Assembly: GCA_009773495.1 (NCBI GenBank)
Contig: WSXW01000021.1
Location: 1-45,121, forward strand
Direction: 5' to 3'
From: Bacillota bacterium
GTDB taxonomy: Bacteria > Bacillota > UBA994
DNA: 45,121 nt
The notes under the pieces were generated by a model. The model saw only the letters and a list, made by a program, of their open reading frames with translations, was not told the origin of the DNA and made no database searches. The first letter of the stretch is position 1. Every line of letters begins with the position of its first letter. Below, one piece after another: positions 1,488 to 40,996 of this stretch. A program made the translations under genes and the position numbers.

Positions 1488-2522
1488 TTAGGGCGACTCC
1501 TCGGCTAGTGGATAGACATTGACGCCACTAGGCGCGACAGCTACGGAGACCGTCTCCCCAACCAAAAAATCACTCGTTACTGAAGTAACCTTAAAGGACA
1601 GGTGGGGACCCATTGCTACAGTGTAATAGGTCAATTTTCCCGCGAACTTTCGCGCCGTAACAGTTCCCGAGAAACCCGTTCCAGCCCGTCCTAAGCTGAT
1701 CTGATCGCCTTGAAACATGCCCAACGCCGCGTCGGTGTCTGGCTCATTTACGGGCATAACACCTAATTCACAGACGAACTTGCCGGATATCACTTTGCCG
1801 GGCACGTAGTTGGCGTCTCCCATAAAGTCAGCGACTTTTTTGGTTGCGGGCTTGCGATATATAATTTCGGGGGGAGCGACCTGCTCAAGCCTGTTGTCCA
1901 AGATCACCGCCACCCGCTCTGACATCATAAACGCTTCCTCTTTGTCGTGAGTGACCAGAACACAAGTAAACTTGAGCTTTTTCTGCAATGCGGCAACAAA
2001 TTCACGCATGCCGAGCCTGAGACTGGTGTCCAGATTGGAAAATGGCTCGTCTAAGAGCAGTACCCCGGGTTCCACAACGCAAGCGCGGGCGAGCGCTACG
2101 CGCTGTTTTTCGCCCCCAGACAGCTCAGCGGGCAAGCTACTTTCTCTGCCCGACAATTGGACGAGTTGCAGAATATTTTTCACCTTCGTTAAGATTTGCT
2201 GACGCTCTTCACCCCGCGCACGCAACCCAAACGCCACGTTTTGCCCAACCGTCATATGAGGGAAGAGGCCATAGTCCTGAAAAACGATAATGGCTTTTCT
2301 CTTTTGAGCGGGGGCGTCGGTATAGTCGACTTCATTGAAGAACACCCGGCCAGACGTTGGCTGCTCTAGTCCGGCTACAATCTTGAGCAATGTCGTCTTG
2401 CCGCTGCCGGACGGGCCGAGGAGAGCCAGCATTTCCCCGTCATGTATCTCGAGCGCTATGTTGCTCAGCGTTTCTTTCGCACCGAATTTCTTACAGACAT
2501 CTACGAGTTTTATGTTAGCCAC
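1488..2522 (-). CDS. ABC transporter ATP-binding protein (YnjD/PotA/FbpC type)
   Basis: This is the cytoplasmic ATPase that powers the importer encoded by the next three genes. Walker A is GPSGSGKT at residues 36-43, the Q-loop is VFQDYG, the ABC signature is LSGGEKQ at 134-140, and Walker B is VLLLDEP near 154-160, followed by the switch His in VTHDKEEA. Residues from about 235 form a TOBE-like C-terminal domain, usual for the spermidine/iron/molybdate importer class. The length of 344 residues fits that class. It is the last gene of the operon, 28 bases after the second permease and just before a terminator. In E. coli the matching gene would be ynjD. The substrate cannot be read from the sequence. 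Confidence 0.9.
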   Translation of the reverse strand: MANIKLVDVCKKFGAKETLSNIALEIHDGEMLALLGPSGSGKTTLLKIVAGLEQPTSGRVFFNEVDYTDAPAQKRKAIIVFQDYGLFPHMTVGQNVAFGLRARGEERQQILTKVKNILQLVQLSGRESSLPAELSGGEKQRVALARACVVEPGVLLLDEPFSNLDTSLRLGMREFVAALQKKLKFTCVLVTHDKEEAFMMSERVAVILDNRLEQVAPPEIIYRKPATKKVADFMGDANYVPGKVISGKFVCELGVMPVNEPDTDAALGMFQGDQISLGRAGTGFSGTVTARKFAGKLTYYTVAMGPHLSFKVTSVTSDFLVGETVSVAVAPSGVNVYPLAEESP

Positions 2523-2550
2523 GCCAATACCTCGATTTCATCTCAGTCTC

Positions 2551-3357
2551 TCAGGGTTGCAGTAGATAAGTCGATTTATAGAACTTCTTGACCGCGCCCT
2601 GCGTTATGGCTAGCGCACCGAGTGTCGTCATGATGAAAAGCCAGCTGTAAACTGCGGCCACCTGAATTTCGCCACTCTGTAGATGGGGCACAAAAAGCAG
2701 TGGTATAGTCAAAATTCTGCCGCCGCCGATGAGAAATGTCGTGATGTATTGCGTAAACGAGACAATAAAGCTCATCGTAGCGGCGGAAAGTAGCCCAGGC
2801 ATAATGAGCGGTATAGTCACGTTCCGGAGCACCATAAGTTGCGAAGCGCCAAGCATCTTAGCCTGCACTTCGTGTCGCTCGCCCAACAACTCAAATACAT
2901 TAGTCAGCACTCTTATCGCGTAGGGCAAGGTGAAAACGGTGTGGATAATGACCACACCCAAAATGCTCCCCGTGAGACCAAGTCTGATCATGGAAAAATG
3001 CATACCCATGGTGACTGTGATGCTCGGCACCATCAGCGGCATGAGGGCGAGCAATTTAACTGTCGCGCGACCGCGAAACCGGTACAAGCCTAATGCCTTC
3101 GCTGCCGGCACAGCAATGAGGAGAGTCAGCAAGGTAGTTAAGACGGCGATCAGCACGCTGTTCCCCAACGCCTCAGCGGTTTGCCTGTTAGGCGCGAAGA
3201 CTGTTGCGATGTAGCGCCAACTTAGCACGCTCGGACTCAGGCGTGGGTAGGGCCAAGCCGCAGTAACGGTAAGAACTAACAAAGACAGCAGTGGGGCGAC
3301 ACTTGCCGCAAGGAATGAGTAGAAGATAAGTGCGCTAAGTCGTCCGCCTTTGGTCAT
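2551..3357 (-). CDS. ABC transporter permease, second subunit
   Basis: An inner-membrane permease with about six hydrophobic segments. The BPD_transp_1 'EAA' loop is visible as ...AKMLGASQLMVLRNVTIPLIMPG near residues 160-182. I chose ATG 3357 (MTKGGRLSALIF) because the upstream permease stops at 3359, leaving one base between them, and because the longer frame starts inside that gene with a non-membrane, His/Trp-rich sequence. This gives 268 residues. With the upstream permease it makes the two halves of the channel. In E. coli YnjC both halves are one polypeptide, so here the function is split between two genes. Confidence 0.88.
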   Translation of the reverse strand: MTKGGRLSALIFYSFLAASVAPLLSLLVLTVTAAWPYPRLSPSVLSWRYIATVFAPNRQTAEALGNSVLIAVLTTLLTLLIAVPAAKALGLYRFRGRATVKLLALMPLMVPSITVTMGMHFSMIRLGLTGSILGVVIIHTVFTLPYAIRVLTNVFELLGERHEVQAKMLGASQLMVLRNVTIPLIMPGLLSAATMSFIVSFTQYITTFLIGGGRILTIPLLFVPHLQSGEIQVAAVYSWLFIMTTLGALAITQGAVKKFYKSTYLLQP

Positions 3358-3358
3358 C

Positions 3359-4234
3359 TTAAATGTCACCGCCGTTTCCCATGCGCTGTCTGAGGTGTGC
3401 GGCGTGGCTGTATGCCACCACCAAGCCAATAGAAATGACCGTGATCATGACGTTGACCACCATCGCCTGCGCTCGGTAGGTTAAATCAACATTCGTATAG
3501 TAGACATACGCTTTGACCGGCAGCATATTCCACGCGGGTGAACCGAGCAGAAAAGGCACTTCAAATGCGCCAAACGAAAAGGTGAACGTCATTAGAAAGA
3601 CAGACAGAATCGTGGGTCGAAGTAATGGAAGGAAAACCTGGGAGATCAGCATGGCTCTGCTGGCTCCCAGGTTATAGGCGACCTCGGCGAAACTCTTGCT
3701 GATACTGCCGAGCGTGCCGAAGACGATCATGGACACAAAAGGAATCTGTTTGTAAAGATAGACCAAAATCACGCCAACGGCCCCTGGGTCAAATACTAGC
3801 AAAGGGAAATCGTTCGCCTCCGCGACAAGCCGCAGCCTCCACGCTAGGCGCGAGAACAAGCCGGTCTGAGAAAAAAGGTGAAACACTAGAATCACGACGA
3901 CTAGGTGCGGCACGACTAGGGGCAATTGGTAGAAGAACTTTGGCCACTTCGATTCGCGTTTCAAACCTAACATAGCGAAGGCCCCTACTATGCCCAATAA
4001 ATTAGATACTACAGTGGCCACTAAGGCAACATAGACCGTGTAGAGGAGGGAGATGAAAAAGCTTGTCTCGCCCAACACTTCTCTGTAATAGCGCAAAGTC
4101 AGCCTACTTTCTAGTGCACCGGGCACCGCCCCGAAGCTCTGCAAAAGGCCGTTACCAAGCCCAAAATAGAAGGTTGCTCCCAAGAAGACGAGTAAAGGGG
4201 CTACAAGGATATATGGCTTGAATCTTCTGTACAC
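3359..4234 (-). CDS. ABC transporter permease, first subunit
   Basis: A membrane protein with about six hydrophobic segments beginning YILVAPLLVFLGATFYFG. The EAA-like loop is ...AYNLGASRAMLISQVFLPLLRP. The frame can begin at TTG 4273, but that overlaps the upstream binding-protein gene and adds a Cys-rich non-membrane leader. GTG 4234 (VYRRFKPYILVAP), one base after the TAA of the upstream gene, matches the one-base spacing seen at other junctions of this operon. There is no strong ribosome binding site directly upstream, so translational coupling is likely. The product is about 291 residues. Confidence 0.85.
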   Translation of the reverse strand: MYRRFKPYILVAPLLVFLGATFYFGLGNGLLQSFGAVPGALESRLTLRYYREVLGETSFFISLLYTVYVALVATVVSNLLGIVGAFAMLGLKRESKWPKFFYQLPLVVPHLVVVILVFHLFSQTGLFSRLAWRLRLVAEANDFPLLVFDPGAVGVILVYLYKQIPFVSMIVFGTLGSISKSFAEVAYNLGASRAMLISQVFLPLLRPTILSVFLMTFTFSFGAFEVPFLLGSPAWNMLPVKAYVYYTNVDLTYRAQAMVVNVMITVISIGLVVAYSHAAHLRQRMGNGGDI

Positions 4235-4235
4235 T

Positions 4236-5456
4236 TTAACGCAACAACACTCTCTCGCGCCACAGCTCTTCAATAATAGCGACTTTCCGCGCGTGAACTT
4301 CCGGCAAACGCCTTCTTAAGAGTTCGTCTATGGGCAGGACTCCTCGGCCGATGTCTACGCCCTGCAATACGCTGCGTTCCTCTGCCGAAAGCCTGTTAAT
4401 GTCAAGCACTGGCAGGTCTCCCCAGTTATTGACGTCGAGCTTCGCGGTCTGCATCGCCACGCTGGTGAGATGGTGAATTAGGGCTAAGGCTGCGTCCTTG
4501 TTGGGAGAGTTAAAGGGAATGGCGACATAATGAGTGTTGCCGATGTTGCCTTCCGCGAAGACAAAAGTCTGCGTCGTCGCCGGAACCTCATTTTTCGCGA
4601 TTAGCTGTGCCGCTTGCAGCGGGGTATAACTCATCGCCCATAGAATCTGCCCTTCGGCGAACATTCTGTCTAAGGAAGCTACATCAGGCGGATAGGTTCG
4701 CCCCGCCTCCCAAAGATAAGGTTCCAGCTCATTTAAAAAATCTAGCGCTGGCTTGATGATGTCATAAATCGCATCCTTATCCGCCGCGACGTTGTTAATG
4801 GCATCAAAGCCCACGATTTCATAGATAATGTTTCTCACAAAGGCACTGCCCGTAAAATCCGGAGGTGCAGGATAGGTGAACCGGCCCGGATTAGCGCGAG
4901 CCAGCGCCAGTAGTTCCTCGGCACTCGCGGGGAAGGTCGCCAAACGCGCGCTGTCGGCCATGAAAACTAGTTGAGCGCGTCCTAAGGGAGCAGACATGCC
5001 CCCGATGGCTACGCCAAAGTCATACTTAGTGTCGGAAGCGGCCGGGTCGATCAGGCGGGTGAAGTTCTCGACTCTGTCGGCAAATGGACCGTAGAGCAAG
5101 CCTTGCTGTTTTGCTGTATAGAAGTTTTCGCCATTTATCCAGATGACGTCAATGTCACCTTTCACATCCCCCGCTTGCTTTTCAGCCGTGAGCTTGTTAA
5201 GGATTTGGTCTATATTCATGGGAACACGGCGCAGTGTCACTCCGTACTCAGCTAAAAGAGAAGGCGCAACTATATCGTCAAACCAACTATTGACGGCGCT
5301 GCTACCACCCCACCCGTAAAAAGTGACCGTCTTGCCCCGCGCCGCTTGTAGCGCGTCGGCAAAGTTGTCAGAGGCCACAGTAGCGGTCGGCCTCGCACAT
5401 GCAGCTGAAAGCACGACAATCATCAGCAAGGATATCCCTAAGAAGACCCTCTTCAT
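4236..5456 (-). CDS. ABC transporter substrate-binding lipoprotein (YnjB-like)
   Basis: An extracellular solute-binding lipoprotein of 406 residues. The N-terminus is a lipoprotein signal peptide with lipobox LSAAC around residues 16-20. The mature part begins with the extracellular solute-binding pattern (KTVTFYGWGGSSAVNSWFDD), followed by DIDVIWINGENFYTAKQQGLLYGPF. This layout is typical of the COG4134/YnjB family, which is distinct from the iron-binding FbpA proteins. It precedes the two permeases and the ATPase in the usual importer order. The substrate of YnjB proteins is not established, so none is assigned. The neighbours (rhodanese, Fe-S oxidoreductases) suggest sulfur, selenium or metal chemistry, which is inference. 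Confidence 0.88.
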   Translation of the reverse strand: MKRVFLGISLLMIVVLSAACARPTATVASDNFADALQAARGKTVTFYGWGGSSAVNSWFDDIVAPSLLAEYGVTLRRVPMNIDQILNKLTAEKQAGDVKGDIDVIWINGENFYTAKQQGLLYGPFADRVENFTRLIDPAASDTKYDFGVAIGGMSAPLGRAQLVFMADSARLATFPASAEELLALARANPGRFTYPAPPDFTGSAFVRNIIYEIVGFDAINNVAADKDAIYDIIKPALDFLNELEPYLWEAGRTYPPDVASLDRMFAEGQILWAMSYTPLQAAQLIAKNEVPATTQTFVFAEGNIGNTHYVAIPFNSPNKDAALALIHHLTSVAMQTAKLDVNNWGDLPVLDINRLSAEERSVLQGVDIGRGVLPIDELLRRRLPEVHARKVAIIEELWRERVLLR

Positions 5457-5499
5457 TCAATTGCTCCCCCCGTAATTTCTAGGATTATGGTCTGCAGAC

Positions 5500-6084
5500 T
5501 CACTTGAGGATTTTCACTGCCTCGGCAAACCGCTGCCCCGCGGTGAACAGTATGAGTACCGCAAAGGCTACAAGCACCGAAACACGCCATGCGGGCAGAG
5601 CTATCGCCAAACTGATCATGATGAACCCTTCCGTCCTTTCTACGAGGCCGGGCTGGTAGTAGAACGACTTCACACCTGTCTTCTCCGCTACTGCTCCGAC
5701 TGTCAAAAAAACGGTCATGGACAAAATGATGCTCGCAAAAACTAAGGCCGTAAAAATGGCTAAGCCAGGAGCTGCAAGTGTTACGGCAAGTAGCGCCATA
5801 ATTTCAACGACACGATCAAAGACAATATCCAAAAGTGTGCCGAGTGCGCTCGACTGACCAGTGAGGCGGGCAATGGAACCGTCTAGAACGTCGAAAAGGC
5901 CAGAAAGCCAGAGCAGTAAGATTCCAAGCAGTAGATGCCCAGCCCAGACCGCCCAAGCTGCTGCTACGCCCAACGCGAGAGCGGCAAGCGTCGCAGCAAA
6001 CGGTGTCACACCACAACGCATACAAAGCTGCGCTAAGCGGTCAAAAAAGGGTTGTACCCATTGCCTAGACCTACTGTCTAGCAT
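5500..6084 (-). CDS. CDP-alcohol phosphatidyltransferase family protein (YnjF-like)
   Basis: An integral membrane enzyme family that moves a phospho-alcohol from a CDP-linked lipid to an acceptor alcohol. The complete signature D-G-x2-A-R-x8-G-x3-D-x3-D is present (DGSIARLTGQSSALG then TLLDIVFD). Several hydrophobic helices follow. ATG 6084 (MLDSRSRQW) is preferred over the GTG at 6096 because the GTG falls inside the GGAGGTG ribosome binding site. At about 194 residues it is close to E. coli YnjF (about 200). It lies between the rhodanese and the binding protein, the same company YnjF keeps in E. coli. The acceptor substrate is unknown. Confidence 0.85.
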   Translation of the reverse strand: MLDSRSRQWVQPFFDRLAQLCMRCGVTPFAATLAALALGVAAAWAVWAGHLLLGILLLWLSGLFDVLDGSIARLTGQSSALGTLLDIVFDRVVEIMALLAVTLAAPGLAIFTALVFASIILSMTVFLTVGAVAEKTGVKSFYYQPGLVERTEGFIMISLAIALPAWRVSVLVAFAVLILFTAGQRFAEAVKILK

Positions 6085-6115
6085 ACCTGGCCGCACCTCC
6101 AGTGAATTTTTTCGA

Positions 6116-7555
6116 CTACTTGATTTCGCCTCTGTTATCAGCCCACAATTCGGTAAGCGCCTGCACTTGCTGCCTTAAGGCGGTCGGGACTTGTCCCACG
6201 CTTACCTCAGAGGCTACAAACGACCATTCGATCCAGGAACCGTCGTAATTAAAGACATTTTCATGACCCAAGACTTCTGCGAGCACCATGTAAGTGTGAG
6301 CAGACCTTACGCCAGACTGACACAAAACGATAGCCCTTCTACCCTGAATCGTGTCCCGAAAAATGGCGGCCAGTTCGTCTCTAGACTTCAGAGTCAGATC
6401 GGCTGCATTGGCATTTACCCACTCAATGTGTACGCTGCCTATCAACCTTCCCGTACCGAAAGCGCCGCGCGAAGAGGCAGTAGACCGGCCAGCGTACTCC
6501 GCGGCACTCCGTGTATCGATGACGACCCACTCGCGGGGGTTGTAGAGAGCATGCACCACCATTGCCAAATCGGCATTGTTAACAGCGACGTTATAGTTAG
6601 GAGACTGATAGGCGGTAAGTAGCGGCTGTTCAGCTAAGCGAGCGAACCTTCCGGTCGGGAAGCGGGCCGCCTGCCAAGCGTTTAGACCACCGTCAAGATA
6701 GCGAACATCTCTATGGCCAAGGTGCCTGATCTGCCACATGAAGCGTGCGGCGTCGTGGTGGGCATCTGCAGCATAGACGACGATCATCGACGCAGGTGTC
6801 GCCCCGGCACGTGACAGTAAGTCTTCCACGACTTGACGCGAACGCGTCATGCCGCTCACCGTCGGGGAAACGGCAAGGGGTGAATCCGTACCTGAGTAAT
6901 CTGGACGCCAGACCGAAAACGAACCTTCGATGGGGGATCTAGCGGCATTGAGTGGCAAGAGAGCAGATGTCGGGTTCAATACACCGATCACGACGACATC
7001 TCTCTCGCCACGGTCCATGAGCATTTTCAATTCTGCCGGACTTATGAAAGCGTCTTGATTGGCAAAACGCGACAACTTATGGCTCTGGGCATCGCCCTCT
7101 ATTCTCACCCTGCGTAAGGAGACCTGTCGGATTACGTTAACCGTCTGCGTGGACTCGTCCCAGGTAACATCTGCCCCGAGGTTCTCGGCGACGAAGCGCA
7201 GCGGAACCAGCGTACGCCCGTTGAGGATAAGGGGAGCTACGTCTAGGTTGACATTTTGTCCGCGTACGACGGCAACATTACGCCCTATAACTAATGATAT
7301 AGTCGTGTCTCCTCTTTGTCCTGTCACGGTGTTGGTAGCTTCTACCCAGTTGACGCTTACCCCAAAGGCCTCGAACAAGGCTCGGAAGGGAACAAGGACT
7401 CGCCCTGCTCGGATAATGGGAGCGACCTCTAGCACCATCGGCTGTCTATCAATGAGAACGCGGATTGCGGATGCTTCAGTCAAGGTGGGTTGATAAGCGA
7501 ACAGACTAGAGATACCAAGCGCCAAGACCATGACCCATGTGAGTAGTTTTTTCAA
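6116..7555 (-). CDS. Secreted multi-domain rhodanese (YnjE-like) with N-terminal stalk domains
   Basis: A predicted exported sulfurtransferase. TTG 7555 is chosen because AAGGAGGAG lies just upstream and the product then begins with a clean signal peptide (KKLLTWVMVLALGISSLFAY); the ATG at 7582 would place the ribosome binding site inside the coding sequence. After the signal come two copper-amine-oxidase-N-like repeats (RVLVPFRALFEAFGV, RTLVPLRFVAENLGA), roughly residues 30-140. Two or three rhodanese modules follow. The first lacks a catalytic Cys at the expected loop (VVYAADAHHDAAR). The last has the active loop CQSGVRSA with Cys at about residue 412 from the TTG. E. coli YnjE is also a multi-domain rhodanese in a similar cluster. 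The stalk repeats suggest wall or surface display. Confidence 0.87.
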   Translation of the reverse strand: MKKLLTWVMVLALGISSLFAYQPTLTEASAIRVLIDRQPMVLEVAPIIRAGRVLVPFRALFEAFGVSVNWVEATNTVTGQRGDTTISLVIGRNVAVVRGQNVNLDVAPLILNGRTLVPLRFVAENLGADVTWDESTQTVNVIRQVSLRRVRIEGDAQSHKLSRFANQDAFISPAELKMLMDRGERDVVVIGVLNPTSALLPLNAARSPIEGSFSVWRPDYSGTDSPLAVSPTVSGMTRSRQVVEDLLSRAGATPASMIVVYAADAHHDAARFMWQIRHLGHRDVRYLDGGLNAWQAARFPTGRFARLAEQPLLTAYQSPNYNVAVNNADLAMVVHALYNPREWVVIDTRSAAEYAGRSTASSRGAFGTGRLIGSVHIEWVNANAADLTLKSRDELAAIFRDTIQGRRAIVLCQSGVRSAHTYMVLAEVLGHENVFNYDGSWIEWSFVASEVSVGQVPTALRQQVQALTELWADNRGEIK

Positions 7556-7585
7556 TTTTTTCTCCTCCTTAGATTGGGGCATTTT

Positions 7586-8275
7586 CTATTTTCCGATTTG
7601 AATCCCCTTCTTCGTGGCGATGTACTTCGGTATAAGCGACACGCCAAACAAGATGAACCCAGCGACTGCGAATTGCACCAAGATGTTAACACTCAGTCCG
7701 TGAGTGACAATCTCACCCGCCATGTAAGCGTATATGAAAGCGCCGGGAGCCATGGTGATCAACGATACTAGGGCAAAGGTGGAGAGCTTCATGGGGGTAA
7801 CGCCATAGGCGTAGTTCTGGATATTGTAGGGGAACACCGGCACCAATCTAGTTAAAATGAGAAAGCTCGTGCCGTTTTCTTTGACCCCGTTCTCAATTTT
7901 CTTGAAAATAGGGTTCTGCCCAAATTTGGCCACGATTGTCTCGCGGGCTGCATATTTGGCAATCAAAAAAGCAACAGAAGCGCCAATGGTGGCTGAAACT
8001 AGGGCCAAGATTCCCCCAACTACTGAGCCGAAGGTGATGCCGGCTACAATGGTTACTGCGGAGGCAGGCAACATAAACACCGCCACAAGAACATAGAGCA
8101 CCACATACGCGATGTAGCCAATTGCTCCTAGCCCTTGAAACCATGCGCGCAGGCCATCGACATCGCGCAGCCTATCAATGAGACCAAAGCGCCCTGCTAA
8201 GAAGACGACTGCACTCAAAACAACTAGCGCGACGATTATGCGAACTACGCTACTCTGTTGTTTTTTTGCTTCCAC
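7586..8275 (-). CDS. TVP38/TMEM64 (DedA-like) membrane protein, YdjX/YdjZ type
   Basis: A 229-residue polytopic membrane protein. It has the SNARE-associated/VTT domain pattern: an N-terminal helix, then GYIAYVVLYVLVAVFMLPASAVTIVAG, the GxxxG-rich segment FGSVVGGILALVSATIGASVAFLIAKY, and the amphipathic FLILTRLVPVFPYNIQNYAYG loop typical of TVP38 proteins. It starts at GTG 8275 after GAAGGTG. In E. coli, ydjX and ydjZ of the same family precede ynjA-F. The biochemical role is unknown; related DedA and VTT proteins are linked to lipid scrambling or flipping. Confidence 0.88.
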   Translation of the reverse strand: MEAKKQQSSVVRIIVALVVLSAVVFLAGRFGLIDRLRDVDGLRAWFQGLGAIGYIAYVVLYVLVAVFMLPASAVTIVAGITFGSVVGGILALVSATIGASVAFLIAKYAARETIVAKFGQNPIFKKIENGVKENGTSFLILTRLVPVFPYNIQNYAYGVTPMKLSTFALVSLITMAPGAFIYAYMAGEIVTHGLSVNILVQFAVAGFILFGVSLIPKYIATKKGIQIGK

Positions 8276-8348
8276 GTGTTAACACACCTTCTTTCTTGAT
8301 GCTCGCACTTGGTTGCACCTAAAACGAGTCATCTGTAATTTTTCCCTG

Positions 8349-9116
8349 CTACGTAATAGTCCGATTTATCACGGCCTTAGACTTGTACCTGTTCAGCCAT
8401 GCTTTGACCGGACTCGCCAAGACATTTTCGGGTGGCTGTGAAGCTTGGGTGACGACTGGTCCCCACAATAAGTCTAAGATATGCCATGCCTTGCCTCCAC
8501 CCATTAGCATGGATGAGCGACATGCTGCGCAATAAACCACAATATGCTCAGTAGGCATATCTTTGACGCGTCTATCCATCACGCGCTTGGCTAGGTCTGG
8601 ATTAGCCGGCACTATCATTCCACCAAACCCACAGCAACGCGTACGGTCACGCGTTTGCGCAGGCTCTACCGTTTTATAGCCGAGTTCCGCTAGCGTCCAC
8701 CTGATGCCGTCATGGATGCCTTTGGTGTCGCGCACCGGACATGAGTCATGGATAGAGAAGACTACATCGCTCTGCGCCGCTTTGCCACGCAATTCCCTAG
8801 GCAGGCCAAGCTCAGGCAGTCTCTCCCAGAGTGAAACCGTTTGAAACTCATCAGATTCTTTGAGCATGTTAAGACAGTTTTGGCAGGCGACAATTATCTC
8901 ATCTATCTCGCAATGCTTGATGTCTTGCACCAGGCTGCCAAATCGCGCCTTAAGCAGGTCGACTTGTCCTAGGGCCTTAGTGGGCTTACCACAACATTTC
9001 TGCACGACGGACAATTCCGGGTAGACGTCTTGCAAAAACCCGATCGTCTTACTGATGTTCGCTGGACTATAAGAAGGTAGCGAGCAACCCGGCATAAAAC
9101 CTCGTCGGATGGCCAT
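8349..9116 (-). CDS. CCG-domain Fe-S protein (heterodisulfide reductase HdrB-like)
   Basis: 255 residues with two cysteine-rich CCG domains: ...CGKPTKALG with paired Cys at KCCGKP near residue 41, and the second at RCCGFGGMIVPANP, plus intervening CQNC and CAAC pairs. Such domains bind special [4Fe-4S] clusters and act in electron transfer or disulfide and persulfide chemistry, often with a flavoprotein partner. It starts one base after the stop of the upstream flavoprotein, so the two are translationally coupled and probably form a complex. It is soluble, with no signal peptide. There is no close same-family counterpart in the E. coli ynj cluster that I can name; ydjY there encodes a ferredoxin-like protein. 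Confidence 0.85.
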   Translation of the reverse strand: MAIRRGFMPGCSLPSYSPANISKTIGFLQDVYPELSVVQKCCGKPTKALGQVDLLKARFGSLVQDIKHCEIDEIIVACQNCLNMLKESDEFQTVSLWERLPELGLPRELRGKAAQSDVVFSIHDSCPVRDTKGIHDGIRWTLAELGYKTVEPAQTRDRTRCCGFGGMIVPANPDLAKRVMDRRVKDMPTEHIVVYCAACRSSMLMGGGKAWHILDLLWGPVVTQASQPPENVLASPVKAWLNRYKSKAVINRTIT

Positions 9117-9117
9117 T

Positions 9118-10905
9118 TTATTTGCGCCCCTTTCGTCTTATCGTAAAGGCTCGGGAAAAAGACAACCGTTGATGTATGTCGATAGCGCCGTGGCCTTTGA
9201 TGGGGGACTTGCCCTTGTTGGCTTTGACAAAATCTTTGCGCATCCCGGCAAAAGCATCGGCCAGTTTATACTCCTTCGGACAAACGAGCGTGCACTGGTT
9301 ACACATGTTGCACGAGTAAGGCACTATGGCTTCTATGCTTCCCTTGGCTAAAAAGACACTGAAAAGCTCGCCGGGACAGTGTGTAAAATCATTGAGCATG
9401 AGACATTCGGTCATGCAGTCTTTGCATTCGCACTCTAGACAACGCGAAGCCTCCTTGAACGCCGTAGTGTCATCCAAACCAAGGTCACACTCGTCAAACG
9501 TCTGGATGCGACGCTCTGCTGGCATAATGTTCGGATGATGTCGCTTCAGATCTACCACGTCAGGAGGGAGAGGAACCTCGAATTTGCTCTTATAGGAATT
9601 CTCTAAGGCGAAGTTTCTACCCTCGGTCAACCCTATCCCCTGAAGGTATCTGCTGACCGAGATAGCAGATTTTCTACCTAAAGCCATGGCCTCAATCGCG
9701 ATAGTGCTCCCAGCTGCATCGCCCGCCACAAACACGCCCGGCACGTCGGTGGCTAGGGTGTCCTTGTCAACTAAGTAACGACCTCCGCTAGTTTGCTTAA
9801 GCATGCCGTCCGCGATATCTGCTACTCTTTGACCGGTAGCAAATATCACTGTGTCGCACTGCAGTTCATGGGTGTCTCCGCCAAGTCGTGGGTTAAACCT
9901 ACCCGTCTCGTCGATAACCGCCAGACAGTTTTTCATTCTGATACCGCTGACCCTGCCGTCGGTGCTCAGGAAGTCATCAACACACCAGCCGAAAGTGAAG
10001 AGAACTCCTTCTGCTGCGGCGCTTTCCTGTTCGTGCTTGCTGGCTGGCAAATCACACTCTTTTTCAAGGCAAATCAGTCGTACTTGCTTTGCGCCGCCTC
10101 GCAAGGCCGAGCGAGCACAGTCCATAGCGACGTCTCCACCGCCGATGACAATGACGTTCTCCCCCAAGACGTTGCTTTGTCGCTTGAAGGCGATTTCGCG
10201 CAGGAACTCGACCGCATTCGTAATGCCCGCCACATCGCTCCCGTTAACGCGCGGCATCATTCCTATATGAGCGCCGTGTGCCAAGATCACCGCGTCATAC
10301 TGCTCGCGCAGGTGAGCGATGGCAATGTCCTTACCGACTTCGACACCTCGCCTAATTTCCACACCAAGTTTGTCTAAATAGCCGTACTCGAAGTCTAGCA
10401 CCGCATGCGGGAGGCGATAGGCGGGAATGCCAACGCGCAACATACCACCTAACACCGGGAGCCGTTCAAAAATAGTCACCCGATGTCCTTCCTTGCGGAG
10501 ATCTATCGCGGCTTGAGCGCCGGCAGGACCGGAGCCTACGATGGCTACCGTTTTACCGGTCGCATGCCCGAAAGTCGTGTCCCATAGCTCTTCCCGATCC
10601 GCTTTGTCTGCGGCGTAGCGTTTCAATGCCGCTATGGATATCGATTGGCCGTACTCTGCCTCGCGACGACATACCTTCTCGCAGGGATGAGCACAAATGC
10701 GGCCTAGCGTTCCGGGAAGGAACAGCTTCTCCCTAATCTTCTGGACGGCAGCATCGAACTTGCCTTCCCTAATCAGCTGGACGTAGCCCATAGCGTCGGT
10801 GTGCATCGGACATTCAGCTTGACAGAATGGCGCCTCAAGTCCTTGACAATTATTGGCGATTTCGGTGGCGATCGTCAAAACCTTACCTGTAAACTGCACT
10901 GACAT
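9118..10905 (-). CDS. GltD-like NAD(P)H:acceptor Fe-S flavoprotein
   Basis: 595 residues, first gene of the nine-gene operon. The N-terminus is a Fer4_20-type dihydroprymidine-dehydrogenase-like Fe-S domain (Cys near residues 20, 28, 32, then ICAHPCEKVC). The FAD motif is GSGPAG at 124-129 and the NAD(P)H motif is GGGDVAMD further on, with the FAD-closing VFVAGDAAG. The C-terminal tail adds cysteine clusters CLECECKDC and CNMCNQCTLVC for two more [4Fe-4S] clusters. It probably passes electrons from NAD(P)H to the CCG protein encoded next. The start is ATG 10905. The physiological acceptor is unknown. Confidence 0.88.
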   Translation of the reverse strand: MSVQFTGKVLTIATEIANNCQGLEAPFCQAECPMHTDAMGYVQLIREGKFDAAVQKIREKLFLPGTLGRICAHPCEKVCRREAEYGQSISIAALKRYAADKADREELWDTTFGHATGKTVAIVGSGPAGAQAAIDLRKEGHRVTIFERLPVLGGMLRVGIPAYRLPHAVLDFEYGYLDKLGVEIRRGVEVGKDIAIAHLREQYDAVILAHGAHIGMMPRVNGSDVAGITNAVEFLREIAFKRQSNVLGENVIVIGGGDVAMDCARSALRGGAKQVRLICLEKECDLPASKHEQESAAAEGVLFTFGWCVDDFLSTDGRVSGIRMKNCLAVIDETGRFNPRLGGDTHELQCDTVIFATGQRVADIADGMLKQTSGGRYLVDKDTLATDVPGVFVAGDAAGSTIAIEAMALGRKSAISVSRYLQGIGLTEGRNFALENSYKSKFEVPLPPDVVDLKRHHPNIMPAERRIQTFDECDLGLDDTTAFKEASRCLECECKDCMTECLMLNDFTHCPGELFSVFLAKGSIEAIVPYSCNMCNQCTLVCPKEYKLADAFAGMRKDFVKANKGKSPIKGHGAIDIHQRLSFSRAFTIRRKGRK

Positions 10906-11352: not shown

Positions 11353-11385
11353 AACGAGCAATAGGGTGCGTCCCCATTGCTCGTT
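11353..11385. repeat. Dispersed hairpin repeat, second copy
   Basis: The palindrome AACGAGCAA / TTGCTCGTT encloses the core ATAGGGTGCGTCCCCAT, almost the same core as in the terminator at 1441-1469. An outer GCGAAC/GTTCGC pair lies at 11350-11355 and 11392-11397. The rest of the 10906-11460 intergenic stretch holds no gene that I can support. Confidence 0.6.
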
Positions 11386-12957: not shown

Positions 12958-13224
12958 TGTTATGAGCTGTGTGACAGGCGAGGAGACTCCGGCGAGTTTG
13001 TCGAATTCATTCTACAATCAATCCATGAAAGTCTTATTGAGTTGAAAGAAACCGAACAAGTACTCAGTCAATTCAGCGAACAAGTCGAGAGACTACTAGA
13101 GATTATGGGAGATGATAGCCTGTCTACTAGGGAGATTATGGGTAGATTGCATCTCAGGCATCGTCCTACATTCAGAGACAATTATCTTTTGCCAGCACTA
13201 GAGCTAGGCTTAGAAGTCTACTAA
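12958..13224 (+). pseudogene. Remnant of a Fic-family protein (C-terminal part)
   Basis: The frame from 12958 reads CYELCDRRGDSGEFVEFILQ, then SIHESLIEL, matching the GDSTPFIEFML region after the catalytic core of Fic proteins. It then runs into the winged-helix tail LLEIMGDDSLSTREIMGRL, then HRPTFRDNYLLPALELG. In intact relatives this tail goes on with 'IE...P..PRSPKQKYR'. Here it ends after LELGLEVY at a stop that lies exactly where insertion-element remnant A begins. Upstream is a TAA in frame, and the catalytic HPFxxGNGR loop is missing. The gene was destroyed at both ends, the right one probably by the element. Confidence 0.7.
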
Positions 13225-13779
13225 AGGCAACCCTGGTCAGGACAAGCCGAACGGGTATATATCCACAAATTCGCGTTAACTACGGGGCGGACAACTCTTG
13301 CGAGCCACTTGACGGCCGTGCCGACCATACGTCCAATTCTCTGGTGTGCAGACTGCGAAGGAGTGGACTGTACCTCCACAGGGACTTGATGGAAGCGTAG
13401 GGTTATTGAAATGAGGCAGCCAATCCAGTAATTGGCCTTCTCCCGAAACCAACTGCACCAACGGTAAATCGTCGAGTCATCTGCCGCAATGACTGAGGAC
13501 TTTAGGGGTTCTGACACTGCTTTCTCTATACAAGCAGCTTCATAACGCTTATAGGGCACGATGAGATCCGGCAACTCGTGGTGGATCCGACCGCAGGGAC
13601 ATCGCAAACGTCTTATTCGCAGGGTTACCCATTCACCCAACGTATCTATGAATTTGCGTGCCCGCGTGCCAATAGCCCCAAGCTTTTCCCCGCAACATGG
13701 AGATATAACCTCTTCTGCACACCGAACAAAAAACGCCTGGAGACTTCTCAACTAGCGTGTACTCTGTTACAATAATCAT
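13221..13779 (-). pseudogene. Frameshifted DUF6431-like element protein
   Basis: Two frames must be joined. From ATG 13779 the product begins MIIVTEYTLVEKSPGVFCSVC, the start that remnant B shares (MLIVSDYALVEKSPGVFC), and runs on out of frame to a stop. The other frame supplies the rest: CCGEKLGAIGTRARKFIDTL, RIRRLRCPCGRIHHELPDLI, VPYKRY and a C-terminal helical part. The order zinc-knuckle Cys pairs, then RLRC..CGRIHHELPD..VPYKR, is that of DUF6431 proteins, which accompany DDE transposases in some Bacillota elements. The frameshift lies in about 13690-13725. Reading the second frame alone from TTG 13751 would give a false N-terminus. Confidence 0.65.
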
Positions 13780-16463: not shown

Positions 16464-16484
16464 TTGTACAGATTAATATGGTTC

Positions 16485-16616
16485 CTTCAGGGGCAGGTGA
16501 GAGGGATTACCCTCGATTCCGCACCGGCGGTGATGACCGATGGTCTAAGCCCGCGAGCCGTGAGGCTGATCCGGGGAGGTTCCGGAGCCGACAGTATAGT
16601 CTGGATGAGAGAAGGA
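16485..16616 (+). promoter_or_regulatory. FMN riboswitch (RFN element)
   Basis: The conserved RFN blocks occur in order: TCAGGGGCAGGTGA, CCGCACCGGCGGT, TAAGCCCGCGAGC, GATCCGGGGAGGTTCCGGA, and AGCCGACAGTATAGTC followed by TGGATGAGAGAAGG. It binds FMN in the leader of the rib operon. The expression platform is the terminator hairpin at 16659-16688, ahead of ribD, so high FMN should stop transcription. Confidence 0.97.
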
Positions 16617-16658
16617 CATGATGGGCTTACTTCATTTTAGCCTGTTTTGTTGCTATCG

Positions 16659-31509: not shown

Positions 31510-31583
31510 TGGAGCGGGTGAAGGGAATCGAACCCTCGTAGCCAGCTTGGGAAGCTGATGCTCTGCCATTGAGCTACACCCGC
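31510..31583 (-). tRNA. tRNA-Gly (CCC)
   Basis: The minus strand folds into a cloverleaf: acceptor GCGGGTG/CACCCGC, D arm with AGCTCAATGGCAGAGC, anticodon loop TTCCCAA (anticodon CCC), T arm GAGGGTTCGATTCCCTT and encoded CCA. Confidence 0.95.
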
Positions 31584-31602
31584 AGTTGCCAAGTAATTAT
31601 AT

Positions 31603-31811
31603 CACAGAGTTTTTGGCCACGCAAATCGCGCCCTTGGTGTAGTGCCTGCTACATATTCAATGTGCACCCTGTAATATGGTATGGCTTAGGCGTATGGCTT
31701 AGGCGCTCTCTTATAACACAGAGTTTTTGGCCACGCAAATCGCGCCCTTGGTGTAGTGCCTGCTACATATTCAATGTGCACCCTGTAATATGGTATGGCT
31801 TAGGCGCTCTC
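31603..31811. repeat. Tandem duplication at the 3' end of the FNR-like gene
   Basis: Bases 31603-31692 recur exactly at 31717-31806 (90 bases). The unit is about 101 bases plus an extra 13-base copy of TATGGCTTAGGCG (31680-31705). The unit includes the last codons and stop of the gene at 31800, so a 3' end fragment was copied into the intergenic space. An ORF over this region is an artefact of the repeat. Confidence 0.9.
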
Positions 31812-33254
31812 CGCATGAATTTTATCTGCCGTTATGCCCCTGGACTCGAGCAATTTCTTAACTGCTGCCACCATAGGCTTAGAGCCACAGATGTAGACCG
31901 TGTAACCAACGAGGTCCATTGTCTTTATGACGTCGGTCACAGAACCCTTCACCCCTGTGTAACCTTCGTCGGGATTAGCTATCACCTTGGCATAATCAAA
32001 GTGAGTGGCTTCTGCCGCCAAGGCACGCAGCGTGTCGTCAAAGATTAACTCGCGTACACTGTTAACTCCATAAACAAGCTTGACTGTCTTGCCTGCCTTA
32101 GCTAGCTCGTGGGCTATTGGAACAAAAGGCGTGATACCAATCCCGCCAGCAACCAAAAGCGCCTTCTCAACACCGGGCTTAACGAATAATTCCTGACCCA
32201 TGGGACCTTCAAGGACGACGTGTGTACCTGTGACAAAGGTGTCAAAGATTACACTTGTCGCGTAACCCTGAGGAACTCGCTTGATTGTCAGCCGCACCTC
32301 TCGGTCTGCGCCTAAACCTGATACCGAGTAGGCCCTGAACATCTCCGGATTATCCTGAAATTTGACCAAGAAGAACTGACCTGAATGATACTCTACTCTG
32401 TGGGGATTGATAAACTCGAAGGTAAACTCCCTAATATCCTCAGTCAACTCATGTACGCCTGTAATCTTAGCTTGGATTTTTGTTCTGGCATCGTATCCTG
32501 CGAGGTCCACTCTCTGAGAGAGCTGCTCAGCTTCATCTGCTGTACTCAGAGTCAGGATTTTGGCAGGGCAGTTCTCTATACATGTCAGACAACGGATACA
32601 GATCTCGTTGTCAAACTGGTTCTTACCAGAAAACTCAGTGTAAGGCAGGAGCTGCATCGGGCATACCCTAGCACACTTAGCACACTTATGACACTTATGG
32701 AGACTGTTGATTGTGACTTTGTGGTCACGTTTTTTAGTTAACCCTAGCGGCTTACCAAGTTTATACATTAGTACTTGCATTGTGCCCATTGGACAGAACT
32801 GGCACCAACTGCGCGGTGTGAATGCCAGGCCCAACACGCCTCCCAAAATAGTGACCATGAGATAGCTGCCTACAAATACGAAGCCTAGTCTATCCCAAAA
32901 CGGCAGTGTGCCCCACAGCCTTGATACACGAAAAAACTTGCTACCTAGGTTATACATGAACCAACCAAAAACAGCGGCCCGAGTGTAATTTGATTTCAGT
33001 AATCTAGGTATTTTATGGTTACGGCTAAATGGAAGAAGTAATTGGTCAAACAAGCTGCCATGAGCACAATAAGTGCCGCACCAATAGCGACCCTTGAATA
33101 GGGACATAAACGTAAGCAAAAATATGACACCAAATACAAGAAGTCCGAGCTTGGGTACCCACAGGCCCCCAAATGCAACCAGCAGGGTAAATAGCCAAGC
33201 ATATTGACGGACGGGCGAGAAAGTTCTCTTTGTCTTGATAAAAAATGCCTTCAC
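31800..33254 (-). CDS. Membrane Fe-S / NAD(P)H-flavin reductase fusion (NapH-like plus FNR-like)
   Basis: 484 residues, GTG 33254 after GGGAGG. The N-terminal half is a NapH/MauN-like polytopic membrane part with Cys motifs RYWCGTYCAHG and SWCQFCPMG. Next come two ferredoxin-type 4Fe-4S motifs, CHKCAKCARVC and CIRCLTCIENC (about residues 185-225). The C-terminal half (about 260-484) is a ferredoxin-NADP reductase-like module with the FAD motif FRAYSVSG and NAD(P) motif LLVAGGIGITPFVP, ending VYICGSKPMV. It would move electrons between NAD(P)H and a membrane or Fe-S partner. It lies 155 bases downstream of AOR on the same strand and may supply its redox partner. The substrate is unknown. Confidence 0.85.
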   Translation of the reverse strand: MKAFFIKTKRTFSPVRQYAWLFTLLVAFGGLWVPKLGLLVFGVIFLLTFMSLFKGRYWCGTYCAHGSLFDQLLLPFSRNHKIPRLLKSNYTRAAVFGWFMYNLGSKFFRVSRLWGTLPFWDRLGFVFVGSYLMVTILGGVLGLAFTPRSWCQFCPMGTMQVLMYKLGKPLGLTKKRDHKVTINSLHKCHKCAKCARVCPMQLLPYTEFSGKNQFDNEICIRCLTCIENCPAKILTLSTADEAEQLSQRVDLAGYDARTKIQAKITGVHELTEDIREFTFEFINPHRVEYHSGQFFLVKFQDNPEMFRAYSVSGLGADREVRLTIKRVPQGYATSVIFDTFVTGTHVVLEGPMGQELFVKPGVEKALLVAGGIGITPFVPIAHELAKAGKTVKLVYGVNSVRELIFDDTLRALAAEATHFDYAKVIANPDEGYTGVKGSVTDVIKTMDLVGYTVYICGSKPMVAAVKKLLESRGITADKIHAESA

Positions 33255-33294
33255 AGTTAGCCTCCCTACACATAGTACCTACTCTGACAGGATG

Positions 33295-33313
33295 AATATA
33301 CCCCATGGGGTAT
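33295..33313. promoter_or_regulatory. CsoR/CstR-type palindromic operator over the promoter
   Basis: The 16-base perfect palindrome ATACCCCATGGGGTAT (33298-33313) has the TACCC-N-GGGTA form typical of CsoR, RcnR and CstR-type repressors, which sense copper, nickel or persulfides. Minus-strand TATATT (33295-33300) overlaps it as a possible -10, with TTAGAC or TAGACT about 18-19 bases upstream as a weak -35. Binding would block transcription of the fusion gene. No regulator gene of this family is seen in the window. Confidence 0.6.
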
Positions 33314-33409
33314 TGCACAGTCTAAATTTACATCAAACTGCTCCGCACTGTCAAGAGTCCGCTAGGGGAAAGGCTAGTTTGGCCCACTCGAATTATCAGG
33401 CCTCTTCTT

Positions 33410-35269
33410 CTATTCCTTCAAAACCCATTCTAGGCCTAGGGCTTTCAACGTACCCGAGAGCGGACGACCTTGGTCATCCCAGCCCATGATACCGTAATAG
33501 TCTTGCAGGGTAGCACCAAACTGCTCTCTATTTAATGCTTTACCTGCCAACGGTCCTGATTTAAACGGCTCAAAGAAACGAGGCTTGAGGTAGTCGTCCT
33601 TACCGGTTAGACCTTCTCTGAGGTTAAACAGCCGGGGCAATGTGACTGCTCGCTTGCCGACATCCATTAACTCCAGCATGCTAAAGTTCCACCCTGTAAC
33701 GGCTTGGATGATGGCTTGCATTTGTTCAGGGGTCCAAGGAACAAAGTAACAGGTCACCGTGCAGTTAGTAAAATGGCGCCAAGTTGAAATAGCCACTAGC
33801 ATTCTGGCCTTATCTGTGGAAAGTTCGTCTGCGGGCAATGGCCCAGTAACGCCTAATGGCCGAACCGCTTCTAGTGAAGAACTGGGCTGTGCAAAAATCG
33901 TGTCGTGTATATTATGGCAATGGTCCGCCCCTGTGGGCGACACTGCATAGCCAACACCCAAAGCAGCCTTGAGTCTCGGCTCGTGCATGGGCAGCTCCTG
34001 TCCCTTAACTTCCATGGCCAGGTCATGAGTCTTGACTCCAAGTTCCTGGCTAGCCGCCCTGGTTCCTTCGGCCAATAGTTGACCCAACCCCTGGCGATTG
34101 GCTATCTGCGAGATGAGAAATAACATGGCCTCGGCGTTGCCAAACTTTAGCTCACAGCCTGCCTGTTCCTGGCTTAAGTATCCCTTTTCGTAACACTCCA
34201 TGGCAAAGGAAATAGCTACGCCGGTGGAAATAGTGTCCAGCCCTAGGGAGTTACACATTTCGTTACCCTTGGCCACTCTGACCAAATCGTCTATGCCACA
34301 GTTAGATCCAAGAGCTGCGAGGGTTTCATACTCGGGGCCGCCATAAGCGGGATCTACATACACCGGTCCGTTGGCCTCAACGACTCGCTTACAACGGATG
34401 GGGCAGGCGAAGCAACCTTCGCGGCTTTTGAGAATAGTTGCGTTCATTTGGGGGGCACCGATATTCTCTGCTCCTTCAAAGTGCCCCTCCTGGAAGTTGC
34501 GTGTAGGCAGGCCTCCGGCCGCGTTAAGAGCTAGAAGTGTGGCCGAGGTACCGTTTTCGTGCAAGCTAGCTGCCATGGTAGGCCAATTCTGAGTCATAAA
34601 CTTGTTTAATTCCTGTAGAACCTCGGGCTTTGCAATCTTTGGTGGCCTACTGCCCTTTACGGCAATGGCGCGCAGCATTTTAGAGCCCATAACAGCGCCC
34701 ATGCCACTCCGTCCATAAAAGTGCTTAAGGTCGTTGGTTATGCAGGCGAACTTAACCAGGTTTTCTCCCGCGACACCAATTTGAGCCACGCGCATGTATG
34801 GCTCGCTCTGCTCTTTGCGAATGGCATCTTGAACAAAGCCTGTGGATTGGCCCCATAAGTGACTGGCGTCGCGTATCTCCACTTGATCATCCACAATAGA
34901 GATATACACAGGATGGTCAGACTTGCCCTCGATAATTATCGCATCATACCCTGCGCGGCGTAGCTCGGCTCCGAAGAAGCCACCTGCTTCGGAGTCGCCA
35001 TAGGCACCCGTCAAAGGTGATTTGGCCCCTACACTATTCTTGCCGCTGCCTACCAAAGGAGTGCCCGTGAGCACGCCCCCCGCAAATATCAGCTTGTTCT
35101 TGGGGCCGAGGGCCTCTAGTCCAGGTTCGAGCTCTTTGTATAAATAATGGGCTATAAGTGCCCTGCCGCCTATGTGCTTACGATAGAACGCTTCACCCGG
35201 CGCCTCAACGGATGTGCTGCCCTCTGTTAAGTTGACGCGCAAAAGCCTATTCTGAAAGCCGTATTCCAT
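33410..35269 (-). CDS. Aldehyde ferredoxin oxidoreductase (tungsten AOR family)
   Basis: About 620 residues. ATG 35269 (MEYGFQNRLLRVNLTEG) fits the usual AOR start and has AGGGTG 6 bases upstream; ATG 35275 and GTG 35278 are alternatives. Family motifs: GGRALIAHYL, GGVLTGTPLVGSGKNSVGAKSPLTG, and the [4Fe-4S] ligands CFACPIRC (Cys about 286, 289, 293) with a later Cys near 500. AOR oxidises aldehydes to acids with reduction of ferredoxin, using a tungsten bis-pyranopterin cofactor. The stop is at 33410. Ten bases upstream is the MoaD/ThiS-like gene, the usual sulfur-carrier partner for the pterin. Confidence 0.94.
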   Translation of the reverse strand: MEYGFQNRLLRVNLTEGSTSVEAPGEAFYRKHIGGRALIAHYLYKELEPGLEALGPKNKLIFAGGVLTGTPLVGSGKNSVGAKSPLTGAYGDSEAGGFFGAELRRAGYDAIIIEGKSDHPVYISIVDDQVEIRDASHLWGQSTGFVQDAIRKEQSEPYMRVAQIGVAGENLVKFACITNDLKHFYGRSGMGAVMGSKMLRAIAVKGSRPPKIAKPEVLQELNKFMTQNWPTMAASLHENGTSATLLALNAAGGLPTRNFQEGHFEGAENIGAPQMNATILKSREGCFACPIRCKRVVEANGPVYVDPAYGGPEYETLAALGSNCGIDDLVRVAKGNEMCNSLGLDTISTGVAISFAMECYEKGYLSQEQAGCELKFGNAEAMLFLISQIANRQGLGQLLAEGTRAASQELGVKTHDLAMEVKGQELPMHEPRLKAALGVGYAVSPTGADHCHNIHDTIFAQPSSSLEAVRPLGVTGPLPADELSTDKARMLVAISTWRHFTNCTVTCYFVPWTPEQMQAIIQAVTGWNFSMLELMDVGKRAVTLPRLFNLREGLTGKDDYLKPRFFEPFKSGPLAGKALNREQFGATLQDYYGIMGWDDQGRPLSGTLKALGLEWVLKE

Positions 35270-35279
35270 ATACATCACC

Positions 35280-39318: not shown

Positions 39319-40275
39319 TTATCTATCCAACCCCTGCAAAATCGCATAAAGCTTGCCCATTTGCTTTATTACTTCGGTAAACGGGATTGTGTCGGCGTTG
39401 TTAAAAACGTAAACCCTTTGCATTTCGGCAAAAGTCGCCTGAAGTTTGGCGTCGGTTTCAAGAGCTTTGAAAAGCAGAAAATCAACAAAGGGCTTTTGCG
39501 CCAAGTCGCTACCGATTCTATTTTGTTCCTCCCGCCGCTTATATTCAAGCATTTTCAAGAGTTCATCCTGCTTGGCGAGAAGGGCAGAGATTCTTTTGGT
39601 GCTCATCAACAAGGTCAGGTCGTATAAATGCTTAGTCACATCAAACAGCATCTGCCGCTGAAAATAAAACTCCGCTGCCAGAATCTTGTCCGCAAAGATG
39701 CGCTCCATTTTGATGGTTTTGACCTCGAAAGGGAATACATCATAGCTGTTACGGAGAATACCCTGCTGTTCAGAGTCTGCCTCTGTATACAGCAAAGGTT
39801 CAACCACCAGCGATTCCACCGGTTCGCTTATCGTAAAAGAAGTCGCCTCGACCTTTACATATCCGAATCTCTGGAGGGCATCATCGGCATCGATTTGGGT
39901 TACCGGCTGATATTCATAAACGCTTGTAATGCTTCCCTTTGCATTAATTTCTTTTGTTCTATCACTCGTCCTTGGCAGAGAAATGTATCCGTTTGCCGCA
40001 GTTTCCAGCCTCTTTTTGCCCTGCGACTTCGAGCAGTCCTGTACTTCTACCGTCAGATCTATGTCCTCAGAAAACCGTTTCAGGCTACCGATTGCCTTAT
40101 ATAATGCCGTGCCGCCCTTAAAGTAAGCCGGCAATTCTTGTTGCCATGAAGCAAGCTCAGAAAGAAGCAGGGTAAGATAGTAATCCTTTTCGATGATATC
40201 TTCCCTGACTCCTGTCTTTTCTGATATTGCTGTAAGCAACGCCTGGAAAGCGTCTCTATCTTTATGCAGTTTCAT
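39319..40275 (-). CDS. AbiEii-type nucleotidyltransferase toxin
   Basis: About 318 residues from ATG 40275 (MKLHKDRDAFQALL), with GGAGAGG 8 bases upstream; ATG 40281 and GTG 40284 are alternatives. The nucleotidyltransferase motif GGTALYKAIGSLKRFSEDID (about 54-73) carries the GGT and acidic pair that bind NTP and metal. In known AbiE systems such enzymes modify tRNA ends and stop growth. It overlaps or touches the antitoxin gene, as is normal for this pair. It lies next to a mobile-element scar, so it probably arrived by transfer. Confidence 0.88.
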   Translation of the reverse strand: MKLHKDRDAFQALLTAISEKTGVREDIIEKDYYLTLLLSELASWQQELPAYFKGGTALYKAIGSLKRFSEDIDLTVEVQDCSKSQGKKRLETAANGYISLPRTSDRTKEINAKGSITSVYEYQPVTQIDADDALQRFGYVKVEATSFTISEPVESLVVEPLLYTEADSEQQGILRNSYDVFPFEVKTIKMERIFADKILAAEFYFQRQMLFDVTKHLYDLTLLMSTKRISALLAKQDELLKMLEYKRREEQNRIGSDLAQKPFVDFLLFKALETDAKLQATFAEMQRVYVFNNADTIPFTEVIKQMGKLYAILQGLDR

Positions 40276-40280
40276 ATCCA

Positions 40281-40925: not shown

Positions 40926-40949
40926 AGACAAGGACTCCTTTCTCTTGTT

Positions 40950-40996
40950 ATTATAATGTGTATTTTCAATTGATATTATTGACATCATAATAACAC
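40950..40996 (-). promoter_or_regulatory. Promoter region of the AbiE pair with imperfect palindrome
   Basis: Minus-strand TATAAT lies at 40950-40955. Directly upstream, 40958-40996 is a 39-base imperfect inverted repeat (outer arms GTGT..AT / AT..ACAC, inner TCAAT / ATTGA). It is a likely AbiEi binding site (inference); a good -35 is not obvious. Confidence 0.4.

Follow-up and report, generated by a model that had tools for sequence, protein, structure and literature searches.

A conserved nine-gene YnjBCD-type operon in Bacillota, its exchangeable modules and the association of one variant with selenium use

The ydjXYZ-ynjABCDEF cluster of Escherichia coli K-12 (b1750-b1758) encodes the ATP-binding cassette (ABC) importer components YnjB, YnjC and YnjD, an exported rhodanese (YnjE), a CDP-alcohol phosphatidyltransferase (YnjF) and a TVP38 membrane protein (YdjX). 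To our knowledge, no function has been settled for it. Here, we analyzed a homologous operon of nine genes, located on the minus strand between positions 1488 and 10905 of a 45,121-nucleotide stretch (contig WSXW01000021.1, C72 in our numbering, hereafter the window) from the 2.5-Mb genome of a Bacillota bacterium of the UBA994 lineage. We consider it highly probable that the nine genes belong to one functional unit. In E. coli, FNR activates ydjXYZ-ynjABCD and ynjE (PMC3688515), and the substrate of YnjE has been reported as unclear (PMC10215317).

Listing of open reading frames (ORFs) and profile searches confirmed the nine genes and the families named for them in the initial annotation (Table 1). 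It had counted five or six families of the E. coli cluster among them, and six have a match by phmmer: YnjB (207 bits), YdjX (161), YnjD (102), YnjF and YnjE (48 each) and YnjC (36). The GltD-like oxidoreductase and the Fe-S protein with CCG domains (hereafter GltD and CCG) had no E. coli match in this search. Conversely, the E. coli cluster includes a YdjY ferredoxin, a second TVP38 protein (YdjZ), an AhpD-like protein (YnjA) and a short ATPase, and lacks GltD and CCG, which in the window stand in the place of YdjY and YnjA. It also has one fused YnjC, whereas the window has two permeases.

The packing of the genes is tight, as had been described, although only the gap between GltD and CCG measures a single base, where several had been claimed. 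The other gaps are of 73, 3, 19, 43 and 28 bases, and the ORFs as called overlap by 38 bases between YnjB and the first permease and by 71 bases between the permeases. In three close relatives from the window's own family (L163, L164 and L166), the order of the nine genes is kept while the flanking genes differ on both sides, which sets the ends of the operon. YnjB is present in 7 of the 15 genomes of the window's class. No promoters, terminators or Rfam elements were found above chance within the operon, and promoter-like sites in the region were near chance (13 found vs 8.7 ± 3.2 expected). A strong terminator-like hairpin of 14 pairs (11353-11385, minus strand) precedes the start of the operon by about 450 bases and might act in leader attenuation.

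Conserved content and exchangeable modules

We collected YnjB relatives from genome contigs of Bacillota, Desulfobacterota, Spirochaetota and one Eggerthellaceae, and added even draws from two orders. The central genomes of every draw were chosen for carrying YnjB, the 80 named loci are the ones with the highest similarity to the query, and neighbors were assigned to families with profiles built from these same loci. The order names used below (Bacillales-like, Lactobacillales and Lachnospirales) are taken from the genera Fictibacillus (L048), Enterococcus (L012) and Oribacterium (L030), and the counts are not corrected for kinship. Within 8.5 kb of YnjB in the 107 well-covered loci (YnjB flanked by over 5 kb in both directions, the window counted once), we found TVP38 in 88, a YnjF-like transferase in 72, a MerA-like pyridine-nucleotide reductase in 52, a rhodanese in 31 and CCG in 19. 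The same-strand run around YnjB includes TVP38 in 77 and the transferase in 61 of 106 such loci, and the usual order in Bacilli is YnjB, two permeases, YnjD, TVP38, transferase and MerA-like reductase.

The complete gene set of the window occurs outside its class in eight genomes of two other orders: L133, L140 and L141 in the Bacillales-like order and, in the Lachnospirales order, L187 with identical gene order and L188, L191, L193 and L194 with rearranged ones. Nine of the 216 Lachnospirales-order genomes have a close CCG homologue, always within a block of rhodanese, GltD, CCG and TVP38 (at a contig end in L197), and seven of these nine carry YnjB, as compared with 10 of the 216 overall (Fisher p = 1e-9). 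By these counts, CCG is specific to the YnjB-type unit. The neighborhoods bear out the proposal that an importer, an NAD(P)H-type Fe-S reductase, an exported sulfurtransferase and a lipid enzyme belong together across phyla: the unit was seen in Bacillota, Desulfobacterota, Spirochaetota, one Actinomycetota locus and E. coli. The same families stand near YnjB in most of the 107 loci, far more often than chance would allow, and the unit thus survives the objection that they might seldom be adjacent in other genomes.

Neither the redox pair nor the lipid enzyme, both proposed earlier as parts of the pathway, is fixed, since each is exchangeable across YnjB loci. The alternative to the transferase is a set comprising an IU-type nucleoside hydrolase, an APH/choline-kinase-like kinase and two glycosyltransferase-like enzymes (TIGR04282 and TIGR04283). 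Among the first 81 loci, 32 have the transferase, 36 the alternative set and none both (Fisher p = 2e-12, ignoring relatedness), and in the 107 loci the numbers are 71 with the transferase only, 24 with the alternative set only, one with both and 11 with neither. There were at least six switches between the two on the YnjB tree, on which independent-pairs tests reached no significance, with too few pairs. The redox part may be GltD with CCG, the MerA-like reductase, YdjY with a PrdB-like protein or, in E. coli, YdjY with the AhpD-like YnjA. Signature residues of YnjB (e.g., N108-G109-N111-F112, Y195, W249 and N307) are more than 95% conserved both in loci with the transferase and in those with the alternative set, which suggests that the cargo class is common to the two. 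The alternative module would fit a route from nucleoside to sugar, sugar phosphate and glycoside.

The YnjB of the window scores 447 bits against NF008633 (cut-off 203) and its predicted structure is confident. No sequence relative of it has a solved structure, and a fold search returned a mixture of nearest solved folds (STM0429, 4r6y; FutA/FbpA; AfuA; PotD), whose ligands include iron, sugar phosphate, gamma-aminobutyric acid and polyamine. Hence, the ligand of YnjB cannot be named from its fold, and we abandoned the search for a substrate among structural relatives. The fold is common with the ferric-binding proteins FbpA and FutA, but the window's YnjB lacks their adjacent pair of tyrosines, an iron ligand; with the best folds mixed, the metal role once suggested for the operon finds no support.

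In the rhodanese, the active-site loop is kept only in the second domain, as C421-QSGVR, where E. coli YnjE has C385-GTGWR, a loop also found in Enterococcus relatives. GltD has the dinucleotide motifs GSGPAG and GGGDVA together with N- and C-terminal cluster cysteines, and the two CC...CxxC motifs of CCG are of the HdrB type. These two proteins match different parts of NCBIfam model NF045663 ("diclust_near_Sec", a pyridine nucleotide-disulfide oxidoreductase/dicluster-binding protein), GltD the N-terminal part with 232 bits and CCG the C-terminal part with 185 bits. The model describes a single fused reductase, whereas the window has two genes, each below the cut-off of 530; in L042, GltD and CCG are fused into an 856-residue form like that of the model. 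By analogy with HdrB- and GltD-type proteins, the pair would form a disulfide-type reductase driven by NAD(P)H. The nearest NCBIfam model to the transferase is archaetidylinositol phosphate synthase, with a score below cut-off.

Marks of selenium use

SelD was present in 29 of the 32 YnjB genomes of our first sample, and the window's genome has a selD gene with an in-frame TGA. In the Lactobacillales order, 13 of 18 genomes with YnjB have SelD, against 49 of 229 without YnjB (p = 1.6e-5), and in the Lachnospirales order the numbers are 9 of 10 against 63 of 206 (p = 2.6e-4), both tests ignoring relatedness. The association depends on the variant. Where CCG lies beside YnjB, SelD was found in 15 of 15 genomes, while it is present in 21-57% of the YnjB-lacking genomes of the three orders. 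Only 19 of 36 MerA-variant loci are from genomes with SelD, and the YnjB family as a whole is not restricted to SelD-positive genomes. The GltD/CCG variant thus tracks selenium use, in a correlative manner, and the MerA variant shows no selenium link. An oxidoreductase of TIGR03169 (N-terminal to SelD), slightly under the 310-bit cut-off, recurs near the MerA variant (L034, L079, L098, L111, L129, L139 and L147). Its presence in the Bacillales-like order does not go with that of SelD, and we dropped it as a selenium mark.

Other marks are independent of SelD counts. Outside the window's own family, L011 has the YnjB closest to that of the window (57% identity), and the catalytic codon of the L011 rhodanese is TGA, for selenocysteine (Sec), with the frame reading on as UQGGVRSAHT. 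A LysR regulator above the cut-off of NF040786 (LysR_Sec_metab, associated with selenium metabolism) occurs at L011, L015, L049, L063 and L149, in two of which (L015 and L149) an EF2568-type desulfurase (TIGR01977) is also above cut-off. A selenium-linked LysR subfamily had been predicted by comparative genomics (PMC5322559). Near YnjB, five loci encode a PrdB-like protein that reads through an in-frame TGA in the motif UYICHQ, and its gene is split likewise in L126, L127 and L136, resulting in eight loci altogether. Such a protein, absent from the window, recalls the PrdB/GrdB (D-proline reductase) selenoprotein family, although its N-terminal piece scores 117-130 bits against the PrdB model, below the 300-bit cut-off. 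Other in-frame TGA codons (in ABC and permease genes, one CCG, one TVP38 and one single-domain rhodanese) look like intergenic or pre-start stops and were not used.

For the GltD/CCG variant and the PrdB-like one, the selenium role put forward earlier thus gains support of an independent kind, and none was seen for the MerA variant. The parsimonious reading is that a small organic compound is captured, imported and reductively processed by chemistry of the thiol or selenol type, and that its organic part is conjugated to lipid or sugar; selenium would be involved in the former two variants, as cargo or as a cofactor need. Our survey separates the fixed from the exchangeable parts of the cluster and gives the selenium tie of particular variants, so that the role of the E. 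coli cluster becomes testable.

Proposed pathway and alternatives

We read the operon tentatively, and with slightly more doubt than belief, as serving the uptake and reductive processing of a small organic compound bearing sulfur or selenium. We infer the cargo, the direction of the lipid step, the electron path and the flow of selenium from the observed genes, motifs, conservation, module exchange and selenium associations. Outside the membrane, the anchored rhodanese would use C421 to act on sulfane sulfur, on selenium or on a thiol, while YnjB would bind the cargo and the YnjC/YnjD-type parts bring it in. Inside, NAD(P)H may give electrons to GltD, whose FAD and Fe-S clusters would hand them on to the HdrB-like CCG for reduction of a disulfide, a selenosulfide or a bond like these. 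Together with the membrane protein TVP38, the CDP-alcohol phosphatidyltransferase might attach the organic part to a lipid or remove it; in other lineages, the set of nucleoside hydrolase, kinase and glycosyltransferases would take the place of this step. In the GltD/CCG variant, the pathway would either supply selenium or depend on it (SelD). A stronger form of the proposal, which we think unlikely, makes the GltD/CCG-type YnjBCD operon a dedicated system of selenium acquisition: a rhodanese or selenorhodanese would capture organoselenium, YnjBCD import it and the NAD(P)H-driven HdrB-like enzyme reduce it, with selenium passing to SelD. If so, the operon would be the missing selenium importer.

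Several observations weigh against these proposals. In the Bacillales-like order, where the MerA variant dominates, SelD is found in 29 of 50 genomes with YnjB and 57 of 100 without, i.e., there is no association. Selenium can therefore not be a cargo general to all variants; we ruled out that YnjB as a whole is a selenium gene and narrowed the claim to variants. In the window's class, all 15 genomes have SelD and there is hence no contrast, and the SelD tests take related genomes as independent. One genome (G808), in which YnjB and the CCG block stand on separate contigs, lacks SelD, giving a stricter figure of 15 of 16. Another (G754) has rhodanese, GltD, CCG, TVP38 and transferase without YnjB, and the importer is therefore not indispensable. 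At L011, a hairpin resembling a Sec insertion sequence did not exceed shuffled sequences (z -0.9). We know of no ligand for any YnjB.

The selenium associations might also arise if a selenium-dependent enzyme were needed and selenium were not the cargo, a doubtful but real possibility. A Sec-containing reductase of the PrdB/GrdB type, or an equivalent, would then carry out reductive cleavage of an amine-, polyol- or nucleoside-like compound, in line with the reductive C-N cleavage that is the chemistry of this family, with the PrdB-like UxxC proteins of the eight loci and with the Sec-rhodanese of L011. However, the window and the Lachnospirales and Enterococcus-type loci lack such a selenoprotein and yet track SelD, and the LysR regulator and EF2568-type desulfurase indicate handling of selenium itself. 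An organoarsenical or 5'-substituted nucleoside or sugar, as in arsenosugar synthesis, seems to us an improbable cargo, to which the nucleoside hydrolase, APH-fold kinase, TIGR04282 and TIGR04283 module would be suited. In its favor, TVP38, the MerA-like reductase, TIGR04282 and TIGR04283 also occur at loci of ArsS, a radical SAM protein (in 8, 6, 4 and 5 of 20, respectively); in L173 and L170, TVP38, ArsS and the two glycosyltransferases (GT2, then GT1) directly adjoin. Against it, YnjB, the nucleoside hydrolase and the transferase occur in none of the 20 ArsS loci, the nine genes of the window include neither an ArsS-like gene nor glycosyltransferases, and the names TIGR04282 and TIGR04283 are annotation only.

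An envelope response to thiol redox state, sulfide or persulfide, in which the ABC importer supplies the remodelling of lipid head groups with a common solute (resembling a polyamine, a phosphonate or a sugar phosphate), is a little more improbable again. It would agree with the mixed folds nearest to YnjB, with the lipid-related transferase and TVP38, and with the independence of the MerA variant from SelD, but it leaves the selenium-linked LysR, the Sec-rhodanese and the SelD tracking of the CCG variant unexplained. Chance adjacency, or a local cluster without shared function, is scarcely credible: gene order is indeed shuffled among lineages, but shuffled order with content kept across phyla is a mark of selection for shared function, and the neighborhood counts reject this explanation. 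Finally, the operon's ATPase scores 176 bits against the model of SaoA, the ATPase of the SAO (Sao) system, below the cut-off of 360.

Feature coordinates and other genes of the window

Table 1. Genes of the operon in the window and apparent selenoproteins at related loci.
Feature	Location	Strand	Remarks
GltD-like NAD(P)H/FAD oxidoreductase	9118..10905	-	Operon gene 1; N-terminal Fer4_20 cluster, C-terminal dicluster ferredoxin cysteines
CCG-domain (HdrB-like) Fe-S protein	8349..9116	-	Two CC...CxxC motifs; fused to GltD in L042
TVP38/VTT-domain membrane protein, YdjX-like	7586..8275	-	VTT_dom; 161 bits to YdjX
Exported rhodanese	6116..7582	-	Cu_amine_oxidN1 (copper-amine-oxidase-N, stalk) and two rhodanese domains; loop C421-QSGVR in second domain only
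CDP-alcohol phosphatidyltransferase, YnjF-like (family F)	5500..6096	-	CDP-OH_P_transf; complete DGx2ARx8Gx3Dx3D motif
YnjB-family solute-binding lipoprotein	4236..5456	-	NF008633; 35% identity to E. coli YnjB; model predicted local distance difference test score (pLDDT) 96
ABC permease A (YnjC type)	3359..4273	-	BPD_transp_1
ABC permease B (YnjC type)	2551..3429	-	BPD_transp_1; start codon uncertain
YnjD-like ABC ATPase	1488..2522	-	ABC_tran and TOBE_2
Exported rhodanese lipoprotein, L011	1119-2246		TGA at 2067; Sec replaces catalytic Cys; ordinary ORF calling would truncate it
PrdB-like apparent selenoprotein (Bacilli), L049	8978-9760		PGUYICHQSVGL
PrdB-like apparent selenoprotein (Bacilli), L063	8919-9668		PGUYICHQSVGL
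PrdB-like apparent selenoprotein (Bacilli), L069	8988-9776		PGUYICHQSVGL
PrdB-like apparent selenoprotein (Bacilli), L149	1695-2159	-	PGUYICHQSVGL
PrdB-like apparent selenoprotein (Bacilli), L150	15953-16417		PGUYICHQSVGL

Elsewhere in the window, an aldehyde ferredoxin oxidoreductase adjoins a fusion of a membrane Fe-S protein with an FAD/NAD reductase (31800-35278), and a 114-base unit repeated 1.8 times with 98% match (31597-31806) adjoins a tRNA-Gly gene (31510-31583). An AbiEii-type nucleotidyltransferase and the adjoining DUF6088 protein (39319-40988) are likely a toxin-antitoxin pair, and a DUF6431 protein (13221-13751) and an integrase-core fragment (41230-41712) are probably transposase remnants. 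An ordinary flavin mononucleotide (FMN) riboswitch (16479-16620) lies 5' of a riboflavin synthesis operon.

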